Shown here one piece after another: positions 771 to 39,227 of a DNA stretch of 43,087 bases. Below the pieces are notes generated by a model. It did no database searches, was not told the DNA's origin, and saw nothing but the letters and a program-made list of their open reading frames with translations. Source of the stretch: Planctomycetota bacterium (GTDB lineage Bacteria > Planctomycetota > Phycisphaerae > SM23-33); the NCBI GenBank assembly GCA_024275995.1, contig JAJRYB010000126.1, forward strand, positions 1 to 43,087. Reading direction: 5' to 3'. The first letter of the stretch is position 1, and the number at the start of each line of letters is the position of its first letter. The position numbers were made by a program, and so were the translations under genes.

Positions 771-1637
771 ATGAAAAAACGAAATAGCATGCCGTGTTTC
801 CGGCTCATTGCCGTGATCGCAACAGCTGCGGTTTCGGTCGTGGCGCATGCCGGTGGAATCGAATCCGTCACCAGGCCCAGCCGGGACGTCACCATGTCCT
901 TCACTCGGCCTGGGCAGATTGGAAAAGTCCTGGTCAGGCAGGGCGATACGGTTCGCGTCGGAGACGTGCTGGTGCATCTGGACGATACAGCCGAGCGTGC
1001 GCAACTGGCGCAATCCGAAGCCCAGGCACAGGACACTACGCGCATCCGGGCGGCAAAGGCTCGGCTCGATCAGAAGAAGGTTCTCCTGAAGCGCAAGCGG
1101 CAGATCGCCGATCGTGGCGGCGTGACGAAGCTCGAGATGGAAGAAGCGGCGCTGGACGTGACGATTGCCGAATTGTCTCTGGAACTGGCGAAATTCCAGC
1201 ATGCCCAGGACATACTCAAATACGAAGAGTCGAAGTTCCAGGTAGAGCGGATGAAATTGAAAAGTCCGATTCCGGGCAAGGTGGAAAACGTGTTCGTCGA
1301 AACGGGCGAGTCCGTCAACGCGCAGGCGCAGGTCGTTCGCGTGGTAAACGTCGATCCGATGTGGATAGACGTTCCGGTTCCGATCATCCAGGCGCGCAGG
1401 CTCACTGCCGGCGCGCCAGGGCGGGTGCGTTTCGGGGCCGGCGCTTCCGATACGGCGGTGGGTAAGATTATTCACGTCGCAGCCGTCGCGGACGCCGCCA
1501 GCGATACGCTGAACGTCCGGGTCGAGGTGGCAAACCCTTCCAACCGACCGGCGGGGCAGCGGGTGTTCGTCGAGTTTCCCGTGCGAACGTCGGGAAAAGA
1601 CAATAACGCTCCGACCGACGGGGCAGAACAGGAGTAA
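771..1637 (+). CDS. HlyD/RND-type periplasmic adaptor (membrane fusion) protein
   Basis: Signal-like N-terminus; biotinyl-lipoyl half motifs (GQIGKVLVRQGDTVRVGDVLVHLDD ... SPIPGKVENVFVETGESVNAQAQVVRVVNVDPMWIDVPV) around a coiled-coil region. Confidence 0.88.
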   Translation: MKKRNSMPCFRLIAVIATAAVSVVAHAGGIESVTRPSRDVTMSFTRPGQIGKVLVRQGDTVRVGDVLVHLDDTAERAQLAQSEAQAQDTTRIRAAKARLDQKKVLLKRKRQIADRGGVTKLEMEEAALDVTIAELSLELAKFQHAQDILKYEESKFQVERMKLKSPIPGKVENVFVETGESVNAQAQVVRVVNVDPMWIDVPVPIIQARRLTAGAPGRVRFGAGASDTAVGKIIHVAAVADAASDTLNVRVEVANPSNRPAGQRVFVEFPVRTSGKDNNAPTDGAEQE

Positions 1638-1640
1638 CAC

Positions 1641-2003
1641 ATGGCAAAAGATACGGCGGATACCGGCGGCAAGCCGGTGGAACAGCAGGCGCGGGAGCAG
1701 ACCGGACAGCAGGTCCGTCTGAGGGTTGACGAGCGGGACATGCGGGCCGCGTACGCCAACGCGTTCCGGACGAACGGATCGGCCGAGGAGGTAGTGCTGG
1801 ACTTCGGCCTGAACCAGGTGAACGTCGCCGCCGACCAGCAGGACCAGTCGGAGATCGTCTTCAGGGTGACCGAGAGAATTATCATGAATTACTATTCAGC
1901 CAAGCGGTTGGCAATTACGCTCAGCCAACTTATCCGCCGTCACGAAGAACAGTTCGGCGAGTTGGAACTGGACGTCACCAAACGCCGCAAGGGCGATTCG
2001 TGA
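1641..2003 (+). CDS. DUF3467-like small protein
   Basis: LRVDERDMRAAYANAFRTNGSAEEVVLDFGLNQVN...RIIMNYYSAKRLAITLSQLIRRHEEQFGELELD resembles DUF3467; only 3 nt after the adaptor gene. Confidence 0.7.
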   Translation: MAKDTADTGGKPVEQQAREQTGQQVRLRVDERDMRAAYANAFRTNGSAEEVVLDFGLNQVNVAADQQDQSEIVFRVTERIIMNYYSAKRLAITLSQLIRRHEEQFGELELDVTKRRKGDS

Positions 2004-2025
2004 TTCCCGTAGTGGAAAACCGGAA

Positions 2026-4299
2026 ATGACGCGCGAGGCCCTATCGAACGGACAGACGCCCGCCCCGGAGAACGCTCCAGGCCCGGCGGAATTGATCGAT
2101 CGCCTGAACCGGTTCCAGGGCGCGCCGCATGAGTTCCTCGTCAACCTGCTGGCCGTGCAATGCCACCTTTCCGGTGCGCAGGGCGGTGCGATTCTCCGTC
2201 CCGCTCAATCCGGGCGTTTCGAAGTGATGGCCGTCTTCCCACCGCTGCCTGATCAGTCCACCGCACCTGTCTGGCTTGCCCAGGCGGTAGCGCAGGCAGG
2301 CGAAGTCCTGGCCAGCGGAACGACGGTGACCCGCGAGCTGCGCGACGCGGACGAACTCTACGGCCAACCCGCGCAGCGAAACCTGGTGATGATCCCGCTT
2401 CGCAGCGAGAAGGGCGTTCGCGGAATAGCATCCTTCACCGTCGAGGCGCGAGGTCCTGCGCTGGAGGCGTCCCGGGAACGCCTGGAGATAACCGTAAGCC
2501 TGCTGAGCCTCTACGAAATGCGCCTTTCGCTACAACGGCGCGGGGCGGACCTTCGCCGTCTGCGAATGGCGATGGAGGTCTTCGCCGCCTTCAACGAGCA
2601 GGACCGTTTCACCGGTTCCGCGATGGCGCTGTGTAACGAAATCGCCTCCCGATGGCAGTGCGAGCGGGTCTCGCTGGGGTTCCTCCAGGGTCGATACGTC
2701 AAGGTCAAGGCGCTCAATCATACGGAAAAGTTCTCTCGCAAGATGCAGCTGGTCCAGGACATCGAGGCGTCCATGGAAGAATGCCTCGACCAGGATATCG
2801 AGATCGTTCACCCGTCTCAGCCGGAGGCGACGTATGTCAGCCGGTCCGCGGCGGACCTCTCCAAACGCCACGGTCCGACGTGGATGCTGTCCATGCCGTT
2901 GCGAAAAGCCGGCGAACCCCTAGCCGTGATCACCGTCGAACGCTCGGCGGATCGTCCAATGAACCTCGAAGAAATCGAGGCGCTGCGCCTGACGGGCGAT
3001 TTGTGCACTGCGAGGCTTCTGGGCCTGCACGAAACTGACCGGTGGATCGGCGCTCGCGCCGCGGCTGGGTCGAGAAAGGCGATCTCCTCGCTGCTGGGCG
3101 CGAAACACACCTGGCTGAAGGTTATCGCTATTCTCGTGCTCGCGTTTGCGGGATTCCTTCTCTTTGCCAGGGGAGACTACAACGCCGAGGCGCCGTTCGT
3201 TCTGGAAGCGGCGCAACGGCAGGTTGTCCCGTCTCCGTTCGACGGGTACATCAAGCACGTTTACGTCGATCGGGGTGACAAAGTCGTCGGTTCCAGCGGC
3301 CGGCCGTCATGGCTGATTCGCCGCGGCGACGTTCCGGACATCAAGGCGCTGGCGGACGACCTGCTCGCCAGCGCCGATGCGGATACAGCTTCGCCGCGTG
3401 GGCACGTGTATTCGCTGCTGAGCGAAGAGACGAAAAACGCTCTCTCGCGTGTAGCGTCCGGCGCTGAAGACCATACCGCGAAGGACGCCGTAATCGATGG
3501 GATCAACGGCCTGCTGGGTAGTGAACGCCTCTACGATTCCATTGCCTGGAAGAACCTTTCGCCGACGAAGCGACAGATGGACCTGTTGAAATGGCGCGAT
3601 CAAGGCGTGCTGGACGCCGCTCGCCTGGTGGAATTGAACCGCTCGCTTCTGGTGGGCGCGTTCGAGCGGACCATCCTGCCGCCCCCGACGGTTCTTGCGG
3701 ACCTGGACGTATCCGAGATGCGTCTGAAGCTCAGTTCCGCACGAGTCGAGAGGGCAGGGCACCTTAAGCGCGCAAGCGCCGCGATGCGGGACGGGAAGAC
3801 CGTCGAGGCGCAGATCGCCCGCGCCGACGCCGAGAGGACCGCCGCGCAGATCCGCCTGCTGGAATATTACGTCCGCAAGGCGATTATCGTGGCGCCGACG
3901 AGCGGAATCGTGCTGATCGGTGAACTCGAGCGCAAGATCGGATCGCCGGTCAAGACGGGCGACGTGCTGTTTGAAGTGGCGCCGCTCGAGTCGCTGCGCG
4001 CGGAACTGGCGGTCCCGGAAGATCGTATCGGCGAGGTGCAATTGGACCAGGGCGGCGCCCTTGCCGTCGAAAGCTACCCGGGTGAGCACGTCGCATTCGT
4101 GGTCGAGCGCATCAGCCCCATCGCCGAGGTGGTTGATCGGGAGAACGCCTTCAAGGTGCGCGTCCGCCTGAAAGATCGACGCGACTGGATGCGGCCGGGT
4201 ATGGCGGGACTGGCGAAAATACACATCGGCCGACGTCGTTACGCGTGGATATGGACGCGCAGAGTAGTGAACTGGATTCGGATGAAACTCTGGTGGTGA
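2026..4299 (+). CDS. GAF-like N-terminal region(s), one TM segment, C-terminal HlyD-type adaptor
   Basis: About 350 aa GAF-like cytoplasmic region, TM segment LKVIAILVLAFAGFLLFA, then SPFDGYIKHVYVDRGDKV ... APTSGIVLIGELERKIGSPVKTGDVLFEVAPLESLRAELAVPEDRI lipoyl/HlyD halves. Confidence 0.82.
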   Translation: MTREALSNGQTPAPENAPGPAELIDRLNRFQGAPHEFLVNLLAVQCHLSGAQGGAILRPAQSGRFEVMAVFPPLPDQSTAPVWLAQAVAQAGEVLASGTTVTRELRDADELYGQPAQRNLVMIPLRSEKGVRGIASFTVEARGPALEASRERLEITVSLLSLYEMRLSLQRRGADLRRLRMAMEVFAAFNEQDRFTGSAMALCNEIASRWQCERVSLGFLQGRYVKVKALNHTEKFSRKMQLVQDIEASMEECLDQDIEIVHPSQPEATYVSRSAADLSKRHGPTWMLSMPLRKAGEPLAVITVERSADRPMNLEEIEALRLTGDLCTARLLGLHETDRWIGARAAAGSRKAISSLLGAKHTWLKVIAILVLAFAGFLLFARGDYNAEAPFVLEAAQRQVVPSPFDGYIKHVYVDRGDKVVGSSGRPSWLIRRGDVPDIKALADDLLASADADTASPRGHVYSLLSEETKNALSRVASGAEDHTAKDAVIDGINGLLGSERLYDSIAWKNLSPTKRQMDLLKWRDQGVLDAARLVELNRSLLVGAFERTILPPPTVLADLDVSEMRLKLSSARVERAGHLKRASAAMRDGKTVEAQIARADAERTAAQIRLLEYYVRKAIIVAPTSGIVLIGELERKIGSPVKTGDVLFEVAPLESLRAELAVPEDRIGEVQLDQGGALAVESYPGEHVAFVVERISPIAEVVDRENAFKVRVRLKDRRDWMRPGMAGLAKIHIGRRRYAWIWTRRVVNWIRMKLWW

Positions 4300-4392
4300 C
4301 GAATCGATCCAGGGGTCCGGTAACTATTTGCAAAACGTCTGCGTTGGTAAAAACATCCGCTTACGGTCGCAGCTGGTTTGTGTGGTTTGAAG

Positions 4393-4590
4393 GCCGATGT
4401 TTTGACGGGAGCCTGATAATTATTAAAAAAATGCCTGTTGGTAGTCGCAGGCTGATCTGATGAAGCCTCGCCGATGTTTTGACGGGAGCCTGATAATTAT
4501 TAAAAAAATGCCTGTTGGTAGTCGCAGGCTGATCTGATGAAGCCTCGCCGATATTTTGACGGGAGCCTGATAATTATTTGAAAAATGCCT
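4393..4590 (+). repeat. Tandem 77-bp direct repeat: two identical full copies (4393-4469, 4470-4546) plus a partial third copy (4547-about 4590) containing the start codon of the next CDS
   Basis: Unit GCCGATGTTTTGACGGGAGCCTGATAATTATTAAAAAAATGCCTGTTGGTAGTCGCAGGCTGATCTGATGAAGCCTC occurs twice without mismatch; third copy matches about 41/44 positions. Confidence 0.97.
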
Positions 4591-6777
4591 GTAGATCGTC
4601 CCACATTCAGCGAGTCGTGGTATCGCGTAGCTCAGCTGCGCCCGCGCCTGCGATCCACCATACAGGTGCATCGGCAGCATTTTCGAGGGCAGTTGTGGCA
4701 GGTATTGCAGGACCCATCGAGCAACCAGTTCTTCCGCCTGAACGAATCGGCGTATCACTTCGTAGCCATGCTGGACGGAGTGCGGACGATCGAGCAGGCC
4801 TGGCACGCATGTGCCGAGCAGCTCGGTGACGACGCGCCCACGCAGGGCGAGGCGATCCAGCTTCTCGGACAGCTCTACACGTCCAATCTGCTTCAGGGGG
4901 AGCTTCCTCCGGACGCCGAGGGCCTGCTGCGTCGATTCCGCAAGCGCCGTTCGCGCGAGATCAAGGGGTACCTCGGGAACCTGCTGTTCATCCGTATTCC
5001 CCTCTACGATCCGGACCGGTTCCTCAATCGCTGGGTAAGCGTGCTGGGCTGGGTGTTCAGCCGCCCCGGGGCGATCCTCTGGGCGCTGGTAGTCTGCTCG
5101 GGAATCTACGTCGTGCTCGGTAACTTTGACGCGCTGCTCAAACAGGGCGGGGGTATTCTCAGCCCGTCGAACTGGCCGCTGCTGTACGTGAGCCTTGTGT
5201 TGGTCAAGGTCTTCCACGAGTTCGGCCATGCCTTCGCGTGTAAGCGCCTGGGGCGAGTGAACGGCAGCGGTGGCGAAGTGCACACGATGGGCGTGATGCT
5301 GCTGATTTTCACGCCGCTGCCATACGTGGACGCCTCCAGCGCGTGGGCGTTTCGCAGCAAGTGGCAGAGGGCGATTGTGGGCGCTGCGGGCATGTACGTA
5401 GAACTCGCCATCGCCGCCATCGCAGCGATCGTGTGGGCGCACACGATCTCAGGTACCACCGTCCACGCCATCGCGTATAACATAATGTTCATCGCCTCCA
5501 TCTCGTCGCTGCTGTTCAACGGTAATCCTCTCCTTCGATACGACGCATATTACATTCTCTCCGACCTCGCGGAGATTCCCAACCTCGCCCAGCGCAGCAG
5601 GAGCTACCTGTACTACCTCGTGAAGCGCTACGCCTGGTCCGTGCGAAATCCCCACAACCCGGCGCACAGCGGCGGCGAACGGGTGTGGTTCGTGTTCTAC
5701 GGCATAGCTTCGACGATCTATCGCGCGCTGATCTTCGCGGTGATCCTTATGTTCCTCGCCAACCGCCTGCCCAAACCGCTGGCGATACTGGCGGTGGGGA
5801 TTGGAATCGTCGGCGCATTCACCTGGCTGTGCGTGCCGCTGGTGAAATTCGTGCACTACCTTGCCGGCAGCACGGAGCTTGCGCGCGTCAGGGGACGGGC
5901 GGTGGTTACCGTGCTGGCGTTCGTGGCGATTCTCGTCATGTGCCTGGGAATTATCAGCATGCCGGATCGCCACACGGTGGACGGCGTTACCGATCCTGTC
6001 GGAATGTCCGTCGTTTACGCGCGGGTGGACGGGTTCGTCGTTGGTTACCAGCCGTCCGATCGCCCGGTCAGTCCCGAAGGCGATCCGCTTGTCCGATGCG
6101 TGAACCCGGAACTGACGGCGAGAATAGAACGGCTTCGCGCGGAGAAACGAAAACTCCTCGCGCAAAGTCGTCTCGCCCTTAGCGAGCACGAAGTCGCCGT
6201 CAAGCAGGTGCGTGCGGTGCAGCTGGCGGACCTGGAAGAAAAAATTCGTCGCGCCGAGGCGGATCGCGATTCACTCGTGGTGCGGGCGCCGAAGGCTGGA
6301 AGGTGGGTAGCGCCGGGAATCGATCGTATATCCAACCGGTACGTGCGCCGCGGCGACGTGCTGGGATACGTCGCCGAGGCGGAAAAGATGATCATTCGCG
6401 CCCCGGCCGGTCAGCGGATCGCCGCAATGCTTATCGCCGAAGCCCGTCAGGAGGTTGACGTGCGCCTGTGGGGGCTGCCCGATTCGCAGTTCCGCGGGAC
6501 CATCAGGACAATCCAGCCGGTGGCGCAGGTCGATCTGCCGTCCGCGGCGCTGGGCTTTTCCGCGGGCGGTCCCGTTCAGACGGCCGGGGACGATCCGAAG
6601 GGCGCAACGGCGGAGAAAGGTTTCTTTGAGATCATCGTCACGCCGCAGGATAATCCCGGTGTGAAGCTGCGTGCCCGTCAGCGGGTTATCGTTCGGTTCA
6701 CGCTACCGTCCCGCCCGCTGGCCGCTCAGTGGTGGCGCTCGCTCCGGCTGCTGTTCCGGCAGAGGTTCGGCGTCTGA
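4585..6777 (+). CDS. PqqD-like N-terminus, site-2 (M50-type) protease core, C-terminal HlyD-type adaptor
   Basis: FFRLNESAYHFVAMLDGVRTIEQAW..LLGQLYTSNLLQGE (PqqD-like); HEFGH zinc motif with multiple TMs; C-terminal lipoyl/HlyD motifs (APKAGRWVAPGIDRISNRYVRRGDVLGYVAEAEKMIIRAP). Confidence 0.85.
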   Translation: MPVDRPTFSESWYRVAQLRPRLRSTIQVHRQHFRGQLWQVLQDPSSNQFFRLNESAYHFVAMLDGVRTIEQAWHACAEQLGDDAPTQGEAIQLLGQLYTSNLLQGELPPDAEGLLRRFRKRRSREIKGYLGNLLFIRIPLYDPDRFLNRWVSVLGWVFSRPGAILWALVVCSGIYVVLGNFDALLKQGGGILSPSNWPLLYVSLVLVKVFHEFGHAFACKRLGRVNGSGGEVHTMGVMLLIFTPLPYVDASSAWAFRSKWQRAIVGAAGMYVELAIAAIAAIVWAHTISGTTVHAIAYNIMFIASISSLLFNGNPLLRYDAYYILSDLAEIPNLAQRSRSYLYYLVKRYAWSVRNPHNPAHSGGERVWFVFYGIASTIYRALIFAVILMFLANRLPKPLAILAVGIGIVGAFTWLCVPLVKFVHYLAGSTELARVRGRAVVTVLAFVAILVMCLGIISMPDRHTVDGVTDPVGMSVVYARVDGFVVGYQPSDRPVSPEGDPLVRCVNPELTARIERLRAEKRKLLAQSRLALSEHEVAVKQVRAVQLADLEEKIRRAEADRDSLVVRAPKAGRWVAPGIDRISNRYVRRGDVLGYVAEAEKMIIRAPAGQRIAAMLIAEARQEVDVRLWGLPDSQFRGTIRTIQPVAQVDLPSAALGFSAGGPVQTAGDDPKGATAEKGFFEIIVTPQDNPGVKLRARQRVIVRFTLPSRPLAAQWWRSLRLLFRQRFGV

Positions 6778-8765
6778 TGAGCGTAGCGGCGAGCACAACG
6801 TGGCGAATGCTCAGTGCACGCCTGCCGGCGAAACAACTTCCCAGCGGTCTGGATTCCGCGTGGGACGCTGCGGGCGGGTATGCCAGGCGCCTGTTCGTCC
6901 GGCCCGGTAAGTTCCTCGCGCGGGCGAAAAAGGTGCTGGCGCTCCGGAAACGCTTCGAGGATCTCTCCGACGCGCGCCTGCGCGAAGAGGCGACGGAGTT
7001 TCGCAGCCGCTTTCGAAGGGGACGTGAGACGCCCTCCGACGTCGAGGCCTCTTACGCCCTTGTCCGCGAAGTCGCCTGGCGCCAGATGGGCGAGAGACCC
7101 TTCCTCGTGCAGGTCGCCGGCGCTCTTGCGATGGATCACGGCTGCATCGCCGAGATGGCGACCGGCGAGGGCAAGACCCTCACCGCGACGATGCCCGCGA
7201 CGATCGCGGGCTGGCGAGGCAGGGGCTGCCACGTTATCACGGTCAACGATTACCTCGCCAAGCGCGACGCCGAGTGGATGGGCAAGGTGTATCATTTCTG
7301 CGGTCTGCGATCGGCCTACATCGGGCAGGAAATGGACCCCTCCGCTCGCCGCGACGCATACCAGGCGGACGTTACCTACTGCACGAACAAAGAGGTGACG
7401 GCGGATTACCTGCGGGACCGGCTTTCGCTGGGGAGGCTGCGATCCCTGCCGGAGGCGCTGCTGGAGAAGATCGTCGACGGCGCCGGGCGGGGAACAGATC
7501 GACTGGTGCAACGGGGATTGAACTGCGCCATCGTCGACGAGGCGGATTCCGTGCTTATCGACGAGGCGGTCACGCCGCTGATCATCTCCGGCGAGGCGCC
7601 GAATCCGGAGCAGGTCCGATCGTTCGCCCAGGCGGCTGAGCTTGCGGGAAGGCTTACCGAGAATACGCACTTCCGGGCGAACCATCGCTACCGGGAGATC
7701 GACCTTACGGATGCGGGCAAGCGGAGGATAGCCGAGCTGGCCGAGACGCTCGGCGGCGTGTGGTCCGCTCCGCGCAGGAGAGAAGAGCTTATCGTCCAGG
7801 CGCTGACCGCGAGGTGGTTTTACCTGCGCGAAAAACAGTACGTGATCCAGGACGGGAAGGTAGTGATCGTGGACGAATTCACCGGCAGGCTGATGCCCGA
7901 CAGGGAGTGGCGCGACGGGCTTCACCAGGCCGTCGAGGCGAAGGAGGGCCTCGAGGTTAATCCGCCGAAGGACACCTGCGCTCGGATAAGCTTTCAGCGG
8001 TTCTTCCGGGCGTATCGTAAACTTGCCGGCATGACGGGTACCGCCAACGAGGCGAGGCGGGAGTTCTGGCAGATATATCACCTTCCGGTTGTGGTGATTC
8101 CGACGAACCGGCCCTGCGCCAGGGACAAGGGGCGGGATCGCGTTTTTGCGAGCGCCGAAGCGAAGTTTCTCGCCGTCGTCGACGAGACGCGCCGCCTGCA
8201 CGAACAGGGGCGGGCCGTGCTGATCGGAACGCGCAGCGTTCGCGCGAGCGAAAAGCTCAGCTCCCTTCTTTCGGACGAGCGTCTGGAGCACCAGGTGCTC
8301 AACGCCGTGCGGCACGCCGAAGAGGCCCGGATCGTCGCCGAGGCGGGACAGCCCGGAAAGATTACGGTGGCGACGAACATGGCCGGTCGCGGAACGAACA
8401 TCCGCCTCGGCCGTGGTGTCGCGGAGGTGGGCGGTCTTTGCGTGATAGCTACCGAACGGCACGAGGCCGGGCGGATAGACAGGCAGTTGTTCGGCAGGTG
8501 CGCCCGACAGGGTCAACCGGGCCGCGCCCTGGCGATGGTGAGCCTGGAGGACGAACTTCTCCAGCGACACGCGCCGCATGTTTCTGCTGCATTGCGGCGG
8601 CGATTCGGCAATAGCGATCGCGAGGTGTCCTCACCATTGACGCGTCGCATATTCAATCTTGCCCAGCGCCGCGCCGAGAGACTTGCGCTCCGACAGCGAA
8701 AATCGGTGCTCCGCTCGGACGATTGGCTGGACGAGTACCTGGGCTTTGCCGGAAGCGAACGATAG
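6777..8765 (+). CDS. SecA-like ATPase paralogue, short form (DEAD motor and preprotein-crosslinking-domain region only)
   Basis: MATGEGKTLTA Walker A, DEADSVLIDEAVTPLIISG, TNMAGRGTNIRLG, GRCARQGQPG motifs; ends soon after the QRRAERLALRQRKSVL.. segment. Start ATG overlaps the upstream TGA (TGATG at 6775-6779). Confidence 0.9.
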   Translation: MSVAASTTWRMLSARLPAKQLPSGLDSAWDAAGGYARRLFVRPGKFLARAKKVLALRKRFEDLSDARLREEATEFRSRFRRGRETPSDVEASYALVREVAWRQMGERPFLVQVAGALAMDHGCIAEMATGEGKTLTATMPATIAGWRGRGCHVITVNDYLAKRDAEWMGKVYHFCGLRSAYIGQEMDPSARRDAYQADVTYCTNKEVTADYLRDRLSLGRLRSLPEALLEKIVDGAGRGTDRLVQRGLNCAIVDEADSVLIDEAVTPLIISGEAPNPEQVRSFAQAAELAGRLTENTHFRANHRYREIDLTDAGKRRIAELAETLGGVWSAPRRREELIVQALTARWFYLREKQYVIQDGKVVIVDEFTGRLMPDREWRDGLHQAVEAKEGLEVNPPKDTCARISFQRFFRAYRKLAGMTGTANEARREFWQIYHLPVVVIPTNRPCARDKGRDRVFASAEAKFLAVVDETRRLHEQGRAVLIGTRSVRASEKLSSLLSDERLEHQVLNAVRHAEEARIVAEAGQPGKITVATNMAGRGTNIRLGRGVAEVGGLCVIATERHEAGRIDRQLFGRCARQGQPGRALAMVSLEDELLQRHAPHVSAALRRRFGNSDREVSSPLTRRIFNLAQRRAERLALRQRKSVLRSDDWLDEYLGFAGSER

Positions 8766-8769
8766 GCTC

Positions 8770-10662
8770 TTAATCCATGAATTTCCTGTGCCACAGTTCC
8801 AGGCACAGCGCCCCCCACAGCGACCTGCTGAACGGACGCGCAGAACCGATCGTCTTGTCGATTACTTTCGGATCGAACAGGCCGCGCTCACGGGCATGCT
8901 TTGAGGTCAGCACGTCCGCGACGAAATCCCTCAGGCCGTCGGACGCCCACCGGCTGAACGGGACGGGAAAGCCCATCTTGTCCGTGCGGGCGAGGATCTC
9001 TTGCGGAGCTATTCCATCCACCGCGCGGCGCAGCAGGTGTTTGAGGCGTCCATCGCGGAACTTTACGACGGGCGGTACTGCCGCCATAAGCTCCACCAGG
9101 CGGTGGTCAAGCAGTGGAACGCGGGATTCCAGCCCCCACGCCATGGAAGTGCGGTCCTCCACGTGCAACAGTGACTGGAGATGCGTCTTTACGTCGAACG
9201 CGAAGATGCGGTTGATCATCGCTTTCGCGCCGTGTGCGTCGAAGATAGCCTCGAACTCGCCGAACGTTTTCTCCCTATCGCGGGGCGCGTCCGTCGTGAG
9301 CAGCTCGCGGCAATCGGAGAAGCGGTCCATCAGCGAGAAATAGCGTCGCGCCGGTTTCTCGAACAGGCCTTCGCGCCAGAACGACTTTACCATCGGCCCG
9401 TACTTCGCCAGCGCCGGCAGGCTGGGGATGATGGTCTCCAGCGTCGCGACGTATTTCGCCGCCTGCGCGGTATTTTCGATGGCGCCTTTTATGCACTCCT
9501 CCAGGTACGCCAGCAGGTAGCGGACGTATCCGATGAACAGCTCGTCGCCGCCCTGTCCGCCGAGGACTACCTTTACGTGCCCGGCGGCCAGTTTCGACAC
9601 GAAGAACTGCGGGAACACACCTGGCCCGGCGGCCGGGGTGTCCATGTGCCAGATTATCTTTTCGATGGAGTTCGTGAAGTCATCGCAGGTGAGATACGTT
9701 TCAAAGTTTTCCGTGTTCGCTTGGCGCGCGGCGATACGTGCGAACGGCGTTTCGTCGAAAAGCTCCCCCTCGTCGAAAGCGCCCGTAAATGTTTTAAGCG
9801 TCGCATCGCCCATAAGTTGCCGTGCGAGCGAGACGATCGCAGCCGAGTCCAACCCGCCGGAGAGGTGCGCCCCCAGCGGAACGTCGGACCGCAGCCGCAG
9901 GCGAACCGCGTCGGATAGCAGCCCGCCAAGTCGCCCGACGAACCAATCCTCGTCGTGGGCGGCGTCGAGGTCGAACGAGATGTCCCAGAATCGTCGAATC
10001 CGCGGCGCATCACCGGGGCGGATCAGCATATTGCAACCGGGCTCCAGCTTGCTCACGGACTTGAACAACGTGCGGTCCGACAGCGTGAACTGGAACGTGA
10101 GGTATTGACGCATGGCGTTCTCGTCGACCATCGCGTCGGCGGTTTTCGCAGCCAGGAGCGCCTTGATCTCCGAAGCGAACGAAAACGTCCGTCCGTCCCA
10201 CGCATAGTAGAAGGGTTTGATCCCCAGGCGGTCGCGCGAGCAGAAAAGCAGTTTCTCCCGCGCGTCCCAGACGGCAAACGCCCACATGCCGTTGAATCGC
10301 TCGACACAATCGGGCCCCCATTGCTCGTATGCGTGGACGATAACCTCGGTATCGCTCCGGGTGCGGAAGACGTGCCCGCGGCTGCGCAGCTCGTCCGCAA
10401 GCTCGCCGTAGTTGTATATGCACCCGTTGAAGACTATCCAGACGCTCTCATCTTCGTTGGCGAGTGGCTGGTGTCCCCCTTCCGGGTCGATTACCGCCAG
10501 GCGTCGATGCCCCAGGCCCAGCACGCCGTCGAGCGCGACGAAAGTACCCTCGTCGTCCGGCCCGCGATGCGAGATCACCTCCAGCATCGACGCCAGAGTT
10601 TCCGGCAGGCGACGTCGATCGTTCGGAGTTTTTGGATTAAGTACTCCCGCGATTCCGCACAT
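8770..10662 (-). CDS. asnB: Asparagine synthase (glutamine-hydrolysing)
   Basis: MCGIAGVLNP N-terminal Cys glutaminase; SHRGPDDEG; GAHLSGGLDSAAI; LLDHRLVELM; 630 aa. Confidence 0.95.
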   Translation of the reverse strand: MCGIAGVLNPKTPNDRRRLPETLASMLEVISHRGPDDEGTFVALDGVLGLGHRRLAVIDPEGGHQPLANEDESVWIVFNGCIYNYGELADELRSRGHVFRTRSDTEVIVHAYEQWGPDCVERFNGMWAFAVWDAREKLLFCSRDRLGIKPFYYAWDGRTFSFASEIKALLAAKTADAMVDENAMRQYLTFQFTLSDRTLFKSVSKLEPGCNMLIRPGDAPRIRRFWDISFDLDAAHDEDWFVGRLGGLLSDAVRLRLRSDVPLGAHLSGGLDSAAIVSLARQLMGDATLKTFTGAFDEGELFDETPFARIAARQANTENFETYLTCDDFTNSIEKIIWHMDTPAAGPGVFPQFFVSKLAAGHVKVVLGGQGGDELFIGYVRYLLAYLEECIKGAIENTAQAAKYVATLETIIPSLPALAKYGPMVKSFWREGLFEKPARRYFSLMDRFSDCRELLTTDAPRDREKTFGEFEAIFDAHGAKAMINRIFAFDVKTHLQSLLHVEDRTSMAWGLESRVPLLDHRLVELMAAVPPVVKFRDGRLKHLLRRAVDGIAPQEILARTDKMGFPVPFSRWASDGLRDFVADVLTSKHARERGLFDPKVIDKTIGSARPFSRSLWGALCLELWHRKFMD

Positions 10663-18348: not shown

Positions 18349-20637
18349 ATGGGTGATCAGAGACGCGGAAGACACATGGCGATCAGCGGGGCGGTGCTCG
18401 AAGGGGTTTTTGCCATCGTAATGATCGTAATCTGGCGCATGACCGGATCGTTCTCGGCGTTGGCGGCAGGGTTGTTTCTCGCCATCGGCGTGGGCGCCTG
18501 GCTGATGGTGACGGTCCTGTTCTACTGCCGGGAACTCGCCGATCGCGAATCCATCGAGCTGGAGGAGATTGCCTCCGGCGATACGGATCGATCGGCACTC
18601 TTCGAACGTGGAGAGGGCGACGAGCTTAGGCCCGCGAGGATGCGCCTGGAGAAGTTCGAACGCTGGGGCGTTCCGATTTTCACCGTCCTTTTCGCCGCGC
18701 TGCACGCGACTGTCGGCATCCTGCTGTTCCGCTCGCTTTCCACCAGGCCGGTGGTGGAGCTTCCAGGGGCCGCACAAAGTTCACTGTTCGTCACGATCAT
18801 CCTGTTCCTGGGATTCCTCTTCAGTCGGTACGCCATCGGAATGAGCAGCGAACGCCAATGGCGTCCGCTGCACGCAACCGGAAGCTACATGCTGGTCTGC
18901 GACCTGTTTATGCTCTCGGCCACGGTGTCGCTGCTATGTGCGTGGCAGGGATACGTGCAAGTCGACGTCATCGTCGCCTACGTGATCCTCGCCGTTCAGA
19001 TCGTTCTGGCGGTGGAAATGGCGATGAGTTTCCTGCTGGACCTGTACCGGCCTCGCGTTCCGGGGCAGGAGCATCGCCTGAGCTTCGACAGCAGGCTGTT
19101 CGCCCTTGTCGCCGAACCCGGCCGGGTTGGGCACTCGATCGCGGACACGCTGAATTACCAGTTTGGCTTCGATGTCTCCAAAACGTGGTTCTACCAACTC
19201 TTCAGCCGGGCGCTGGTGCCGCTGATTATCTTCGGTGTCGTTCTGCTTTTCGCCATGAGTTCCATCGTGATCGTACCCACCGGCGAGCGGCACGTGGTTT
19301 TCCGGTTCGGTCGCCTGAGCGAAACGCAACAAATGCTCACACCCGGCATTCATCTGAAGCTTCCCTGGCCTGTCGAAACGACCAGGCGTTTCAACGTGGG
19401 GAAGGTTCGCGAGATCATGCTCGGCGCGGGACCGGAACGCACCGTCGAGCAGCGCGCCCCGGAGTTTATCAAGGGGCGCGAGGTTTTTCTCTGGACGGTG
19501 GATCACGGCCCGAACGAGGAGCTCGACTTCCTGGTTGCGGTGTCGCCGACGGATGCTCGCAGAGCCAAAACGGTCGGCGAGAATCAACCTACCCCTCCGG
19601 TGAATATCATCAAGCTGGTAGCCGTGGTGAGATACAAAATCGGAGAGACTTTCGAGGATATAAAAAAATATGGCTTCAAATACAGCGAGCCACAGAAACT
19701 TCTGACGTCGGTGGCGTATCGCGAAATGACCCGCTACTGCGCCAGCGAGAGTCCCGAGGTGCTGATGAGCTACGGGCGACAGCGAGCGGCAGGGGAGCTC
19801 AAGAAACGCATCGCCAAAGCTCTTGGTCCTGAAGGTCTGGACATGGGCGTTGAGATAACGTTCGTGGGGTTCGCGTCCGTTCACCCCCCGAAAGAGGTGG
19901 CGATCGCATACGAGAATGTGCTCGCCGAGGAGCGGCGCCAGCTCGAGCAGCGTTACAAGGCGATGGCGTATGCGAATGAGCAGCTGGTGCGCGTTGCGGG
20001 CGACTCGATAAAGGCCCTGCAACTTGCCTTGGCGATCCGGACGATGGAAGAGCTGGAATCGCTTCAGCAGCTTCGGGGCGACGCCGCTAAATTCGACGCG
20101 CAGCTTGACGAATACATCCGGACGTCGAAGCACGACCTGGACGTGCTGGACAAGGAAATCGAGCGGGAAAGGCTGCTGGGGATGATCGTTTCCGGTGGAA
20201 AGCCAACCGGAAGGATGATCCTGCGCGAGAACTACGCCGAGCACCTGGAGGCCATGGCGAAATTGCGACGCCGTGGGAACGTCGATTTTGCGAAATTGAT
20301 CGCCGCGGCCCGGAAGGCTGTGGATGCGAGGTTCTACGAGACGACCGGCGAGGCGGTCGCCCTGGAAGCCGAGGCGCTCGGTGTTGCGGTAAAGACCGAA
20401 CTTGATGAACGGGCGATGGTGGAATCGTTCGAGCGGGAGTTGCCCGCCTACAAGGCAAGCCCGCAGCTTTACATGCTGGACCGCACGCTGGACGTGTGGG
20501 ACGAGGTTCTTCCCAGGCTGACCAAGTACCTGTTGCTCGTGGACCGCGACAAGATCGAGATTCGCCTGGACTGGCAGCGAAAAGAGACCGAGGGGCAGAT
20601 TCGCCAGCCGCCGCGGGAAGAAAACAAGGAACAATAA
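18349..20637 (+). CDS. SPFH/Band-7 protein (HflK-like) with long multi-TM N-terminus (alternative start 18376)
   Basis: Several N-terminal TMs then SSIVIVPTGERHVVFRFGRLSETQQMLTPGIHLKLPWPVETTRRFNV and a long coiled-coil C-terminus. Confidence 0.85.
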   Translation: MGDQRRGRHMAISGAVLEGVFAIVMIVIWRMTGSFSALAAGLFLAIGVGAWLMVTVLFYCRELADRESIELEEIASGDTDRSALFERGEGDELRPARMRLEKFERWGVPIFTVLFAALHATVGILLFRSLSTRPVVELPGAAQSSLFVTIILFLGFLFSRYAIGMSSERQWRPLHATGSYMLVCDLFMLSATVSLLCAWQGYVQVDVIVAYVILAVQIVLAVEMAMSFLLDLYRPRVPGQEHRLSFDSRLFALVAEPGRVGHSIADTLNYQFGFDVSKTWFYQLFSRALVPLIIFGVVLLFAMSSIVIVPTGERHVVFRFGRLSETQQMLTPGIHLKLPWPVETTRRFNVGKVREIMLGAGPERTVEQRAPEFIKGREVFLWTVDHGPNEELDFLVAVSPTDARRAKTVGENQPTPPVNIIKLVAVVRYKIGETFEDIKKYGFKYSEPQKLLTSVAYREMTRYCASESPEVLMSYGRQRAAGELKKRIAKALGPEGLDMGVEITFVGFASVHPPKEVAIAYENVLAEERRQLEQRYKAMAYANEQLVRVAGDSIKALQLALAIRTMEELESLQQLRGDAAKFDAQLDEYIRTSKHDLDVLDKEIERERLLGMIVSGGKPTGRMILRENYAEHLEAMAKLRRRGNVDFAKLIAAARKAVDARFYETTGEAVALEAEALGVAVKTELDERAMVESFERELPAYKASPQLYMLDRTLDVWDEVLPRLTKYLLLVDRDKIEIRLDWQRKETEGQIRQPPREENKEQ

Positions 20638-22938: not shown

Positions 22939-24132
22939 ATGGTGGATACAGTCCAAAGTGTGGTGACGACCGTGAAGCTCACGAAAGTGTTTCGTGACTT
23001 CTGGCTGCGTGAGAAGGTCGCGGCCGTGGTCGATCTTGACCTGGACGTGCTCCCGCACGAGGTGTTCGGGCTGCTCGGTCCCAACGGATCGGGAAAGAGC
23101 ACCACGCTCAAGATGATCCTCGGGCTGCTGTTCCCCACGCGGGGACGCATCTCGGTTATGGGCAAGTCGCCGGCGGACGTACGGATCAAGTCACGCATAG
23201 GCTTCCTTCCCGAAGAGTCGTACCTGTATCCATTCCTGGACGCGCGCGAGACGCTGGATTTTTACGGCCGGCTGTTCCATCAGCCGAGGCGCGAGCGTCT
23301 TCGCCGCATCGACATGCTGCTGGATATGGTCGGGCTTTCGAGCGTGGCGACGAGGCGCGTCGGGGAATATTCCAAGGGAATGCAGCGCAGGATCGGCCTT
23401 GCGCAGGCCCTCATAAACGATCCGGACCTGCTCATCCTGGACGAGCCGACCGCGGGAATGGACCCGATCGGAACCCGCCAGTTCAAGGACCTCATCCGCA
23501 CGCTTGGACGTCGCGGGAAAACGGTGATCCTCTCCAGCCACCTGCTTGCCGACGTCGAGGATGTCTGCGATCGCGTGTGTATTTTGTACGGTGGCAGGCA
23601 GAGGGCGTCCGGACGGGTGAGCGACCTGCTTTCGGACAAGAACCGCACGCGCCTTACGATTGAAAATGTGGACGCCGAGACGCTCGAAGCGATCGAGCAG
23701 ACGCTGGCATCCAGGGGCAGGGAGATTCTGGAGGTAACCCCGGCGAGAGAGAAGCTCGAATCGCTGTTCCTGCGCATCGTAACCGAGGCACAGGAGCAGA
23801 AGCTTGCGACCGGTGGCGCTCTGGTCGGAGAGTTGGCGGAGTTTCTTCGCGACGGGGAAGATCAGGCAGCCGAGAGCGTCATCGAGGATCTCGTCGCGGC
23901 CGGGTCGGAGAAAAAAATTGAACCGTCCGAGTTGCCGCCCCCGCCCCCGCTCGCAGCGCCCCAGCCGGCGCTCGAAGTTCTGCAGGAGTTGGTGTCCTCC
24001 GGCGAGGCCGAGCGCCAACCGTCCGACTCGACCGGCCAGACGCACCCGACGGAGCGTCCAGAGCAGTCTGACGCCGACCGCGACCTGCTTGACGAGCTTA
24101 CCCGAAGCGGAAATGACGGTAAGGAAAACTGA
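22939..24132 (+). CDS. ABC transporter ATP-binding protein with about 120-aa acidic/Pro-rich C-terminal extension
   Basis: LLGPNGSGKSTTLKMILGL Walker A; YSKGMQRRIGLAQALINDPDLLILDEPTAGMDP; HLLADVEDVCDRV; C-terminal PPPPPLAAPQPALEVLQELVSSGE. Confidence 0.95.
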   Translation: MVDTVQSVVTTVKLTKVFRDFWLREKVAAVVDLDLDVLPHEVFGLLGPNGSGKSTTLKMILGLLFPTRGRISVMGKSPADVRIKSRIGFLPEESYLYPFLDARETLDFYGRLFHQPRRERLRRIDMLLDMVGLSSVATRRVGEYSKGMQRRIGLAQALINDPDLLILDEPTAGMDPIGTRQFKDLIRTLGRRGKTVILSSHLLADVEDVCDRVCILYGGRQRASGRVSDLLSDKNRTRLTIENVDAETLEAIEQTLASRGREILEVTPAREKLESLFLRIVTEAQEQKLATGGALVGELAEFLRDGEDQAAESVIEDLVAAGSEKKIEPSELPPPPPLAAPQPALEVLQELVSSGEAERQPSDSTGQTHPTERPEQSDADRDLLDELTRSGNDGKEN

Positions 24133-35639: not shown

Positions 35640-35757
35640 CCGGCATCAAGAGTGCGTGAGGGTACTGGCCCGATGATCGCACGGCAACCTGTCCGGGTGG
35701 CTTTCAAGCCCCGAAAGGATAAGGTGCCACAGCCAGCCTGGTGTGGAGCGATGTGGC
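35640..35757 (+). ncRNA. SAM-I (S-box) riboswitch
   Basis: CATCAAGAGTGCGTGAGGGTACTGGCCCGATGATCGCACGGCAACCTG...AAGGTGCCACAGCCAGCC matches the S-box consensus (ATCAAGAG..GAGGGA.CTGGCCCGATGA...CGGCAACC...AAGGTGC..A..CC); upstream of metY/metX. Confidence 0.93.
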
Positions 35758-35939: not shown

Positions 35940-37244
35940 ATGGCGGATGAGCAGACGTATCGACTTGGGACACTGGCGCTGCACGCCGGACAGGAACCGG
36001 ACCCGACCACCGGAGCACGGGCGGTTCCGATCTACGCTACGGTGGCGTACAACTTCAAGGATACCGATCACGCCGCGAATCTTTTCGCGCTGAAGGAGTT
36101 CGGGAATATCTACTCCCGCCTGATGAACCCCACCTGCGACGTGTTGGAAAAACGCCTCGCAGCACTGGACGGCGGGGTAGGGGGGTTGGCGTTCGCCAGC
36201 GGACAGGCGGCGATAAGCGCAGCGGTGCTTACGCTCGCCGGAGCCGGACAGAATATCGTCTCATCGACGAGCCTGTACGGCGGAACATGGACACTCTTCA
36301 CCCAGACGTTCAAAAAAATCGGTATCGAGGTCAGATTTTTCGATCCCGGAAAGCCGGAAGACATCGCCGGACTCATCGACGACAACACGCGATGCGTCTA
36401 CCTGGAGACCAGCGGAAACCCGAAGAACGACGTGCCCGATTTCCGCAGGATCTCCGACATCGCCCACTCGCACGGGCTTCCGGTTCTCTGCGATAATACG
36501 GTCCTGACGCCCGTGCTCTTCAGGCCGATCGAGCACGGTATCGACATCGTGGTCTATTCCACCACGAAGTACCTCGGCGGGCACGGGGTGCACATCGGAG
36601 GGGTGATCGTCGATTCGGGCAACTTCCAATGGGCGGATAACCCGGACAAGTGGCCGCAGTTCTGCGCTCCGGACGACGCCTACCACGGCATGGTGTTTAC
36701 CGAGGCGCTCAAGCCGATCGGTAATATTGCGTACATCGTGTACGTTCGCACGCATATTTTGCGTGACATGGGTGGCTGCATGAGCCCGTTCGCGGCGTTC
36801 CTGTTCCTGCTGGGAATCGAGACGCTGCATTTGAGGATGCAGCGCCACTGCGAAAACGCCCTGGAACTTGCGAAATGGCTCGAAGGGCACGATTGCGTCC
36901 AGTGGGTCAACTACGCCGGACTGGAGAGCAGCCCACACTACGCCAACGGGCAAAAATACCTGCCTAACGGCGTTGGAGCGATCATCGGTTTCGGAATAAA
37001 GGGAGGAAAGGAAGCCGGTGTGAAGTTCATCAACAGCACGAAGCTCGCCAGCCATCTGGCCAACATCGGCGATGCCAAGACGCTGGTGATACACCCAGCC
37101 TCGACGACTCACCAGCAACTCACAGAGGAAGAACAGGCCGCGACGGGCGTTACGGACGAGTATGTTCGCCTCTGCGTCGGTATCGAAGACGTCGAGGATA
37201 TCAGAGAGGATATTGAGCAGGCGCTGCGCGCGTCACAAACGTAG
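35940..37244 (+). CDS. metY: O-acetylhomoserine sulfhydrylase (PLP-dependent)
   Basis: [71 protein letters not shown]-lysine region. Confidence 0.95.
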
Positions 37245-37421: not shown

Positions 37422-39227
37422 ATGACGGATGATATCTTCGACAGCAGCGATAGCGTTCGTAGCGCCAGGGAGTTGAAGTACGCCCAGACGATGACGCTGG
37501 ACGAACCGCTCACTCTGGAGTTGGGCGGCTGCCTGCGCGACGTTCGCGTAGCTTACGAGACGTATGGCCGACTTAACGAGGCCCGCGATAACGCGGTGCT
37601 TATCGTTCATGCGATCAGCGGCGATTCACACGTCGCGCGGCACGGGCCGTCGGACGATCCGGGCTGGTGGGACATTCTCGTCGGTCCCGGAAAGTGCGTC
37701 GATACGGACGAGTTCTTCGTGATCTCGCCGAACATACTGGGGGGCTGTCGCGGAACGACCGGTCCGAACAGCATCAACCCGGATACGTCCAGACCCTACG
37801 GGAGGGATTTTCCCACCATAACGATCGGCGACATGGTGGAGCTTCAGAGGCGCATGATCGACCAGTTGGGCATAGAGAAACTCCACGCCGTCATGGGCGG
37901 GTCGATGGGCGGCCACCAGGTACTATGCTGGGCGACGAAGTACCCCGACCGCCTGCGCGGCGCTGTTGCGCTGGCGACCTCGCCGCGCCTTACCAGCCAG
38001 GCGCTGGCGTTCGACGTCGTCGGGCGAAACGCGATTCAGCACGACCCGTACTTCAACGACGGGCAGTATTACGATTCCGACGCCGGCCCGGACGTCGGGC
38101 TTGCGATCGCCAGAATGATCGGGCATATCACGTACGTTTCCCGCGAGGCGATGCACAAAAAGTTCGAGCAGACACGACTCGAACCACGAGAGGTGCCTAC
38201 CGCCTTCGAGAAAAAATTCTCCGTCGGATCGTACCTCGGATACCAGGGCGATAAGTTCGTAGAGCGTTTCGACGCAAACAGTTACATTGCCTTGTCGCTG
38301 GCGATGGACCTGTTCGATTTGGGTGATTCGGACGATTGTCTCGCCGAGAAGTTGGCTGTGAGTAAATGCCGCTGGCTGATCGTTAGTTTTTCGAGCGATT
38401 GGCTGTTTCCACCGGAACAGTCACGACAACTCGTCGACGCGCTCATCGCGAAGGACAAGCCGGTCAGCTACTGCAACGTGCACAGCAATTGCGGACATGA
38501 CGCGTTCCTGCTGCCAGACGAGCTGGACAGCTACGGCGAGCTGATCCGTGCGTTCCTGTCGAACCTCGACGGAAGCGCCCCCGGCGACGCCGCGACGCCG
38601 TCGCGCCCCCAGCCCCGTTCGACGAGCATCTTCCACATGGAGCGTCTGGATTACGATCGCATCATGGAGTTGATTCCACCCGGCGTGTCGGTCCTGGACC
38701 TGGGCTGCGGAAACGGCGAGCTTCTATCGCGCCTTTCCGAACGCGGGCACGAACGCCTGATAGGTCTGGAGATCGACGAAAAGTGTGTGCTCTCGTGCGT
38801 GCGGCGCGGGTTGAACGTGGTCCACGCCGACCTTAACGACGGGCTGGCGGCCTTCGGCGACGGGCAGTTCGACCTGGTCGTTCTTTCGAGAACGCTCCAG
38901 GCGGTCAATGACGTCGAGGGCATTGTGCAGGGCATCCTTCGCATCGGGAACCGCTGCGTCGTGAGCTTTCCCAACTTCGGGTATCAAAAACTGCGCGACA
39001 TGCTCTACAAGCAGGGGCGGGCGCCTTCCTCGACCGGAGTGCTGCACCACCAATGGTACAACTCGCCGAACATCCGGTTCTTCACCCTTGCCGACTTCGA
39101 GGACTTCTGCCGCGAGAAGGGCGTCAAAATCCACAAGCGAATAGGCCTGGACACCGAAGCCGCCGTCGAGGTGCACGACGATCCGAATCGAAACGCCGAT
39201 ATCGCGATATTCGTGATCAGCAAATAG
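37422..39227 (+). CDS. metX: Homoserine O-acetyltransferase fused to MetW methyltransferase-like domain
   Basis: MetX: NAVLIVHAISGDSHVA, MGGSMGGHQVLCWA, HSNCGHDAFLL; linker; MetW: YDRIMELIPPGVSVLDLGCGNGELLSRLSERGHERLIGLEID...NRNADIAIFVISK in one frame. Confidence 0.95.
   Translation: MTDDIFDSSDSVRSARELKYAQTMTLDEPLTLELGGCLRDVRVAYETYGRLNEARDNAVLIVHAISGDSHVARHGPSDDPGWWDILVGPGKCVDTDEFFVISPNILGGCRGTTGPNSINPDTSRPYGRDFPTITIGDMVELQRRMIDQLGIEKLHAVMGGSMGGHQVLCWATKYPDRLRGAVALATSPRLTSQALAFDVVGRNAIQHDPYFNDGQYYDSDAGPDVGLAIARMIGHITYVSREAMHKKFEQTRLEPREVPTAFEKKFSVGSYLGYQGDKFVERFDANSYIALSLAMDLFDLGDSDDCLAEKLAVSKCRWLIVSFSSDWLFPPEQSRQLVDALIAKDKPVSYCNVHSNCGHDAFLLPDELDSYGELIRAFLSNLDGSAPGDAATPSRPQPRSTSIFHMERLDYDRIMELIPPGVSVLDLGCGNGELLSRLSERGHERLIGLEIDEKCVLSCVRRGLNVVHADLNDGLAAFGDGQFDLVVLSRTLQAVNDVEGIVQGILRIGNRCVVSFPNFGYQKLRDMLYKQGRAPSSTGVLHHQWYNSPNIRFFTLADFEDFCREKGVKIHKRIGLDTEAAVEVHDDPNRNADIAIFVISK

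Follow-up and report, generated by a model that had tools for sequence, protein, structure and literature searches.

The window analysed here, 43,087 nucleotides of a Planctomycetota bacterium (GCA_024275995.1, contig JAJRYB010000126.1), is contig C109 of a 2.64-Mb draft genome and carries a cassette of five collinear genes on the + strand (771-8765; Table 1). In order, these encode an HlyD adaptor, a DUF3467 protein, a GAF-transmembrane (TM)-HlyD protein, a PqqD-M50-HlyD fusion (M50-HlyD; gene, M50H) and a minimal SecA. The closest relatives among the matches listed in a genome scan were Phycisphaerae/Planctomycetota. As judged from sequence, the cassette is probably an ABC-independent, type-I-like secretion machine, with proteins that bear an N-terminal LEPR-XLL domain (NCBIfam NF012209), many of which run to thousands of residues, as its main cargo; the association of the machine with LEPR-XLL genes across genomes is well supported.

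The cassette and its proteins

The five genes are as tightly packed as the initial annotation had described, with gaps of 3 bp (HlyD to DUF3467), 22 bp (DUF3467 to GAF-TM-HlyD) and 285 bp (GAF-TM-HlyD to M50H) and a one-base overlap (TGATG) between M50H and the SecA gene, the last holding if SecA starts at the ATG at 6777; the mechanically called SecA open reading frame (ORF) opens at a GTG at 6729, an upstream extension. The repeat unit within the 285-bp gap duplicates the ribosome-binding and start region of the fourth gene, creating two mini-ORFs (MPVGSRRLI*) ahead of the true start. The first adaptor (HlyD/RND_mfp, 112 bits, cut-off 94.9; Pfam/NCBIfam) has an N-terminal hydrophobic signal at residues 6-31, and its gene sits at this point of the cassette in most relatives; the GAF-TM-HlyD protein is predicted from hydropathy to cross the membrane at about residues 356-375. 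The AlphaFold2 model of the DUF3467 protein (pLDDT 75, beta-beta-beta-alpha) had no significant PDB match, so the idea of a SecB-like chaperone gained no support.

The M50-HlyD protein combines a PqqD/RRE-like domain (residues 40-103; PF05402, 28.9 bits, gathering cut-off 23.4), an S2P-type intramembrane metalloprotease core (HEFGH 211-215, N312...D320), with several hydrophobic segments in the stretch from residue 150 to 460, and a C-terminus of periplasmic type (about 440-710) that is MacA/MexA-like (Foldseek E 1.9e-11; AlphaFold2 model pLDDT 86.6). As in S2P/M50 intramembrane proteases, the HExxH motif and a distal zinc-binding aspartate lie in membrane helices, which are present in the model. 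H211, E212, H215, N312 and D320 are invariant across 40 aligned members from many phyla and the protease site is therefore kept. The Pfam matches of these 40 members are less uniform (M50, 34; HlyD, 25; PqqD at E<=0.01, 22), and the M50 domain of the window was matched by NF041824 and NF058609 alone, both under cut-off, with the daptide protease model NF041824 at 153.6 against a curated 300. Apparent single-ORF M50-SecA fusions at two loci (L058 and L203, 1240-1251 aa) were set aside, as the L058 ORF overruns a separately found M50 ORF and looks like a start-codon over-extension.

When the short SecA is aligned to its B. subtilis counterpart, only residues 23-604 of the latter are covered. The region beyond 604, which we take to hold most of the helical scaffold, the two-helix finger, the helical wing and the C-terminal linker, is gone. 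Walker A and the DEAD box are retained, as are arginines R574 and R577 of NBD2, all invariant in the SecA alignment. SecA2 family models score far under cut-off, and the full SecA2 architecture is absent. The genome also encodes a full-length SecA of 1,236 aa, on contig C90, which makes the cassette protein a second SecA. At one other locus a divergent SecA_DEAD protein (L209:9156-11108, +; 650 aa, 81 bits, below the SecA profile threshold) directly follows M50-HlyD and may be a degenerate motor.

Table 1. Cassette genes and other features of the window
Feature	Position	Strand	Basis and remarks
HlyD/MacA-type periplasmic adaptor, 288 aa	771-1637	+	TIGR01730 over cut-off, HlyD_D23
DUF3467 protein, 120 aa, soluble, no predicted TM	1641-2003	+	PF11950, 66 bits, cut-off 25
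GAF domain(s), one TM, HlyD adaptor, 757 aa	2026-4299	+	PF01590, PF16576/PF13437
Tandem repeat, 77 bp x 2.6, in 285-bp gap between genes 3 and 4	4393-4592	+	TRF, sequence
PqqD-M50-HlyD fusion	4585-6777	+	Pfam/NCBIfam, alignment, AlphaFold2, Foldseek
Minimal SecA, 662 aa: NBD1, PPXD, NBD2	6777-8765	+	SecA_DEAD, 345 bits
Asparagine synthase-type amidotransferase	8770-10662	-	TIGR01536 over cut-off; XrtA/PEP-CTERM amidotransferase model under cut-off; ends beside SecA gene
Band_7/SPFH protein	18349-20637		About 10 kb from cassette
ABC ATPase, unrelated	22939-24132		14 kb from cassette
SAM riboswitch	35640-35757	+	RF00162, 55.4 bits; upstream of gene at 35940 and abhydrolase-MetW fusion at 37422

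Distribution and association with LEPR-XLL genes

M50H was found in 46 of 60 relatives, and the order HlyD-DUF3467-GAF-HlyD-M50-HlyD-SecA recurred, across families, in roughly half of the 40 mapped loci, placing the five-gene module far beyond chance. At least 547 confirmed relatives occurred among the 84,980 species genomes scanned, the best 80 of which include Planctomycetota, Verrucomicrobiota, Nitrospirota, Desulfobacterota and Alpha-, Beta- and Gammaproteobacteria, together with Fibrobacter, Omnitrophota, Elusimicrobia and a Spirochaetales bin. GAF-HlyD accompanies M50-HlyD in nearly all loci mapped, and DUF3467 is tied to the cassette in Planctomycetota plus some Proteobacteria, Nitrospirota and Omnitrophota. 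A survey of gene co-occurrence, set beforehand as the test that could refute the module, found the genes together across about ten phyla. The initial annotation had proposed an envelope or secretion module with a minimal SecA motor and is supported to that extent, the module being real and conserved, but it had also called the system undescribed, and the locus was already reported by Kamneva, Poudel & Ward 2015 (PMC4452313); it had further overlooked the meaning of the PqqD/RRE domain, the TolC-type gene upstream in many relatives and the likely LEPR-XLL cargo.

The 2015 study described a secondary SecA_DEAD without SecA_SW, partnered by M50/HlyD, GAF/HlyD, HlyD and sometimes OEP proteins, and listed Methylobacterium extorquens AM1 among the carriers (PMC4452313). 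SecA was proposed as the ATPase and M50 as a possible membrane pore, a proposal that the initial annotation repeated, while the broader role was called 'completely unknown' and the locus was given neither a name nor a proven function (PMC4452313). A literature search of incomplete coverage found no later studies of the locus and nothing assigning LEPR-XLL a function or export route; the domain is mentioned for a giant Vibrio protein (PMC10868602). The link between LEPR-XLL and this published, cargo-less locus appears to be new.

It was large ORFs flanking the cassette that pointed to LEPR-XLL, with copies at L039 and L073 scoring above the curated cut-off. Among the 60 relatives, LEPR-XLL was present in 41/46 genomes with M50H compared to 2/14 without. 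The same contrast was seen across 294 Planctomycetota genomes, each at least 90% complete (48/101 with M50H, 4/193 without; Fisher p = 4e-22, phylogeny ignored). A sample of 232 Gammaproteobacteria was divided, after the scores were known, into 18 with a strong M50H match (E<=1e-140), 14 with a weak match and 200 with none, and LEPR-XLL occurred in 17, 2 and 6 of these, respectively (strong versus none, p = 2e-19); several of the last six are short, weak matches. With any M50H match counted, the comparison was 19/32 to 6/200 (p = 1e-14). Carriers from other phyla had a LEPR-XLL protein above cut-off in 39 of 46 cases. The association recurs in separate phyla and also inside individual families, among them f18, whose sole listed M50H member is also its LEPR-XLL member. 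Some genomes pair a single M50H match with many LEPR-XLL genes (42 matches in G037), as expected if one machine serves many substrates. Two counter-examples possess large LEPR-XLL open frames with M50-HlyD not detected in the genome (G582, 7,373 aa; G282, 13,664 aa).

A generic explanation, that both markers follow genomes rich in large surface proteins, was weakened by using PEP-CTERM, likewise a short tag, as a control. In Planctomycetota, PEP-CTERM was present in 62/101 genomes with M50H and 85/193 without, an odds ratio of 2.0 compared to 43 for LEPR-XLL, and within a class-level subset of 52 PEP-CTERM-positive genomes, 24/27 of those carrying M50H had LEPR-XLL, as against 0/25 of the others.

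The two genes are also physically linked. Coordinates place a LEPR-XLL gene no more than 7 kb from M50H at 20 of the 46 non-planctomycete loci, sharing its strand in 18, and linked open frames there reach 14,390 aa. Linkage by coordinates was also seen in 9 of the 18 strong gammaproteobacterial carriers, and linked cases in Planctomycetota include L039, L073, L198-L203 and L205. Given about two LEPR-XLL genes in a genome of roughly 4 Mb, we estimate that linkage would arise by chance in a few percent of cases at most. The gene has no fixed position, lying upstream of GAF-HlyD at some loci and downstream of SecA at others. Adjacency flagged by script at L155 and L195 was dropped, as the matches fit another contig. 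Frames of 14,000-18,000 aa occur in genomes of Thiomicrospira (G364), Sulfuritalea (G378), Comamonadaceae (G371), Verrucomicrobia IMCC26134 (G359) and a gammaproteobacterial bin (G382), and an unlinked frame in the Thiomicrospira genome spans 18,012 aa.

Across 52 sequences, conservation of the tag spans no more than about 15 residues, [F/L]E-A-LEPR-[L/V]LLS[A/G]D-[P/L]. The search pattern dictated the opening residue class, E, L, E, R and two hydrophobics but left the S, [A/G], D and P/L after them free. The 70 residues preceding the tag lack a hydrophobic stretch in 53 of 56 distinct LEPR-XLL ORFs, and most of these proteins are therefore unlike Sec cargo. The window genome encodes exactly one LEPR-XLL protein above cut-off, opening MTMPALFENLESRLLLSG, on another contig (C39). 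At the opposite end, Trp-containing tails (WVADFV, WLGDFL, GLWAMMRG) are frequent in large cassette-adjacent proteins (L155, L156, L159, L191, L195, L199, L205); a conserved C-terminal signal of the giants was considered from these tails, which recur by eye, and was rejected as too inconsistent to claim.

In phyla other than Planctomycetota, the cassette frequently has an ORF of about 500-640 aa upstream of it, and all ten such ORFs tested, picked by size and position, were of OEP/TolC type. ABC transporters were found neither in the cassette nor among the recurrent neighbours of inspected loci. The initial annotation had stated that neither pump nor channel is encoded here; no TolC-type channel was detected in the genome, but on the pump it needs correction, as the window does hold an ABC ATPase, though one unrelated to the cassette (Table 1). 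As in the window, a Band_7/SPFH protein was noted at another locus, adjoining an M50-HlyD cassette without an adjacent SecA (L204:15147-16595).

A candidate export route and its alternatives

The domain chemistry of the cassette proteins suggests how such a machine could work. The cytosolic PqqD/RRE-like domain of M50-HlyD would bind the LEPR-XLL leader, and the minimal SecA, docked on the M50/GAF-HlyD inner-membrane complex rather than acting as a SecYEG motor, would push the chain with ATP. Near LLS[A/G]|D the leader may be cut off by the intact M50 site. The HlyD domains could form a passage across the periplasm that ends in a TolC-type outer-membrane exit, for which many relatives have the upstream OEP gene, and GAF might act as a regulatory gate. 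The only recognisable cargo in the window organism would be the MTMPALFENLESRLLLSG protein. That these steps make up a distinct pathway in about ten phyla, in which the leader is caught by PqqD/RRE, SecA pushes in place of an ABC pump, cleavage occurs en route and HlyD/TolC delivery exports some of the largest bacterial proteins, is offered tentatively, with its chances put slightly below even.

Several observations weigh against export of LEPR-XLL proteins by the cassette. A profile search detected no OEP/TolC-type domain anywhere in the window genome, and the single LEPR-XLL gene of that genome is unlinked to the cassette and cut by the contig end at 719 aa. LEPR-XLL was not detected in 5 of the 46 relatives and 53 of the 101 Planctomycetota with M50H. 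The NF012209 hidden Markov model is 24 residues long, and weak matches may be due to chance, while the co-occurrence counts and Fisher tests treat as independent genomes that are related. Finally, two M50H loci (L199 and L205) adjoin LEPR-XLL genes without a neighbouring SecA gene, such that SecA may not be essential; the same loci suggest that the M50/HlyD proteins, rather than SecA, are responsible for recognition.

The absence of an adjacent SecA gene at some M50H loci would also fit a sorting or processing role, in which LEPR-XLL proteins cross the inner membrane by other means and the cassette serves only to cut off the tag and to anchor or release the proteins, like exosortase or rhombosortase systems. 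The M50 active site, intact in 40/40 aligned members, and a short, sharply ending N-terminal tag that resembles a sorting signal are consistent with this role, but a Sec-like hydrophobic segment precedes the tag in almost no LEPR-XLL ORF, and an ATPase motor, three adaptor domains and often a TolC gene would be superfluous for processing alone, making the explanation unlikely. It is more doubtful still that the short SecA is an accessory SecA2 working with a normal SecYEG, with the M50/HlyD proteins acting after translocation: the SecA_DEAD and PPXD domains are well conserved, but the finger, wing and C-terminal linker are missing from an alignment limited to residues 23-604, and the scores of the SecA2 models argue against membership of that family.

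PqqD domains bind the leaders of ribosomally synthesized and post-translationally modified peptides (RiPPs), and among NCBIfam models, those for daptide and YydH/LiaK maturation proteases come nearest to the M50 part. Both points would suit efflux of a small molecule or RiPP-like peptide matured by M50-PqqD and exported by the adaptors, with the LEPR-XLL association secondary. This is very improbable given a score about half the daptide cut-off and recurrent extra neighbours that are large LEPR-XLL ORFs; no RiPP-type partner recurred in the inspected cassettes, in which no search was aimed at short precursors.

A locus without a cargo and giant LEPR-XLL proteins without a known exit route each gain a testable role once linked, and the link opens genetic testing in tractable bacteria. 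If export of LEPR-XLL proteins by the cassette is correct, a SecA-derived motor can power an HlyD/TolC-type exporter without an ABC pump, which would explain how proteins of thousands of residues leave cells of Planctomycetota, Verrucomicrobiota, Proteobacteria and others.

Comparison with known systems

The cassette corresponds to the locus of Kamneva 2015 (PMC4452313), having a SecA_DEAD without SecA_SW and M50/HlyD, GAF/HlyD and HlyD neighbours, and the idea of an ATPase and pore is shared; the main text of that study does not contain the terms DUF3467 or LEPR, and the distribution is wider in the present analysis. Accessory SecA2 systems of Gram-positive and mycobacterial species likewise reserve a second SecA for a particular group of cargo proteins, which in some systems includes adhesins, but SecA2 retains the scaffold and wing domains and has no HlyD or M50 partners. 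A PqqD-like region beside an M50 intramembrane protease is common to the daptide and YydH-LiaK proteases, whereas the cassette protein is fused to an HlyD adaptor, falls under the curated cut-offs and apparently acts on large proteins. With type I secretion (HlyB-HlyD-TolC), the cassette shares HlyD adaptors, a TolC-type gene nearby in relatives and a putative cargo that mostly lacks a Sec signal peptide and is very large and repetitive; it differs in having, instead of an ABC transporter, a SecA-like ATPase and an M50 membrane protein, and in the N-terminal position of the tag.
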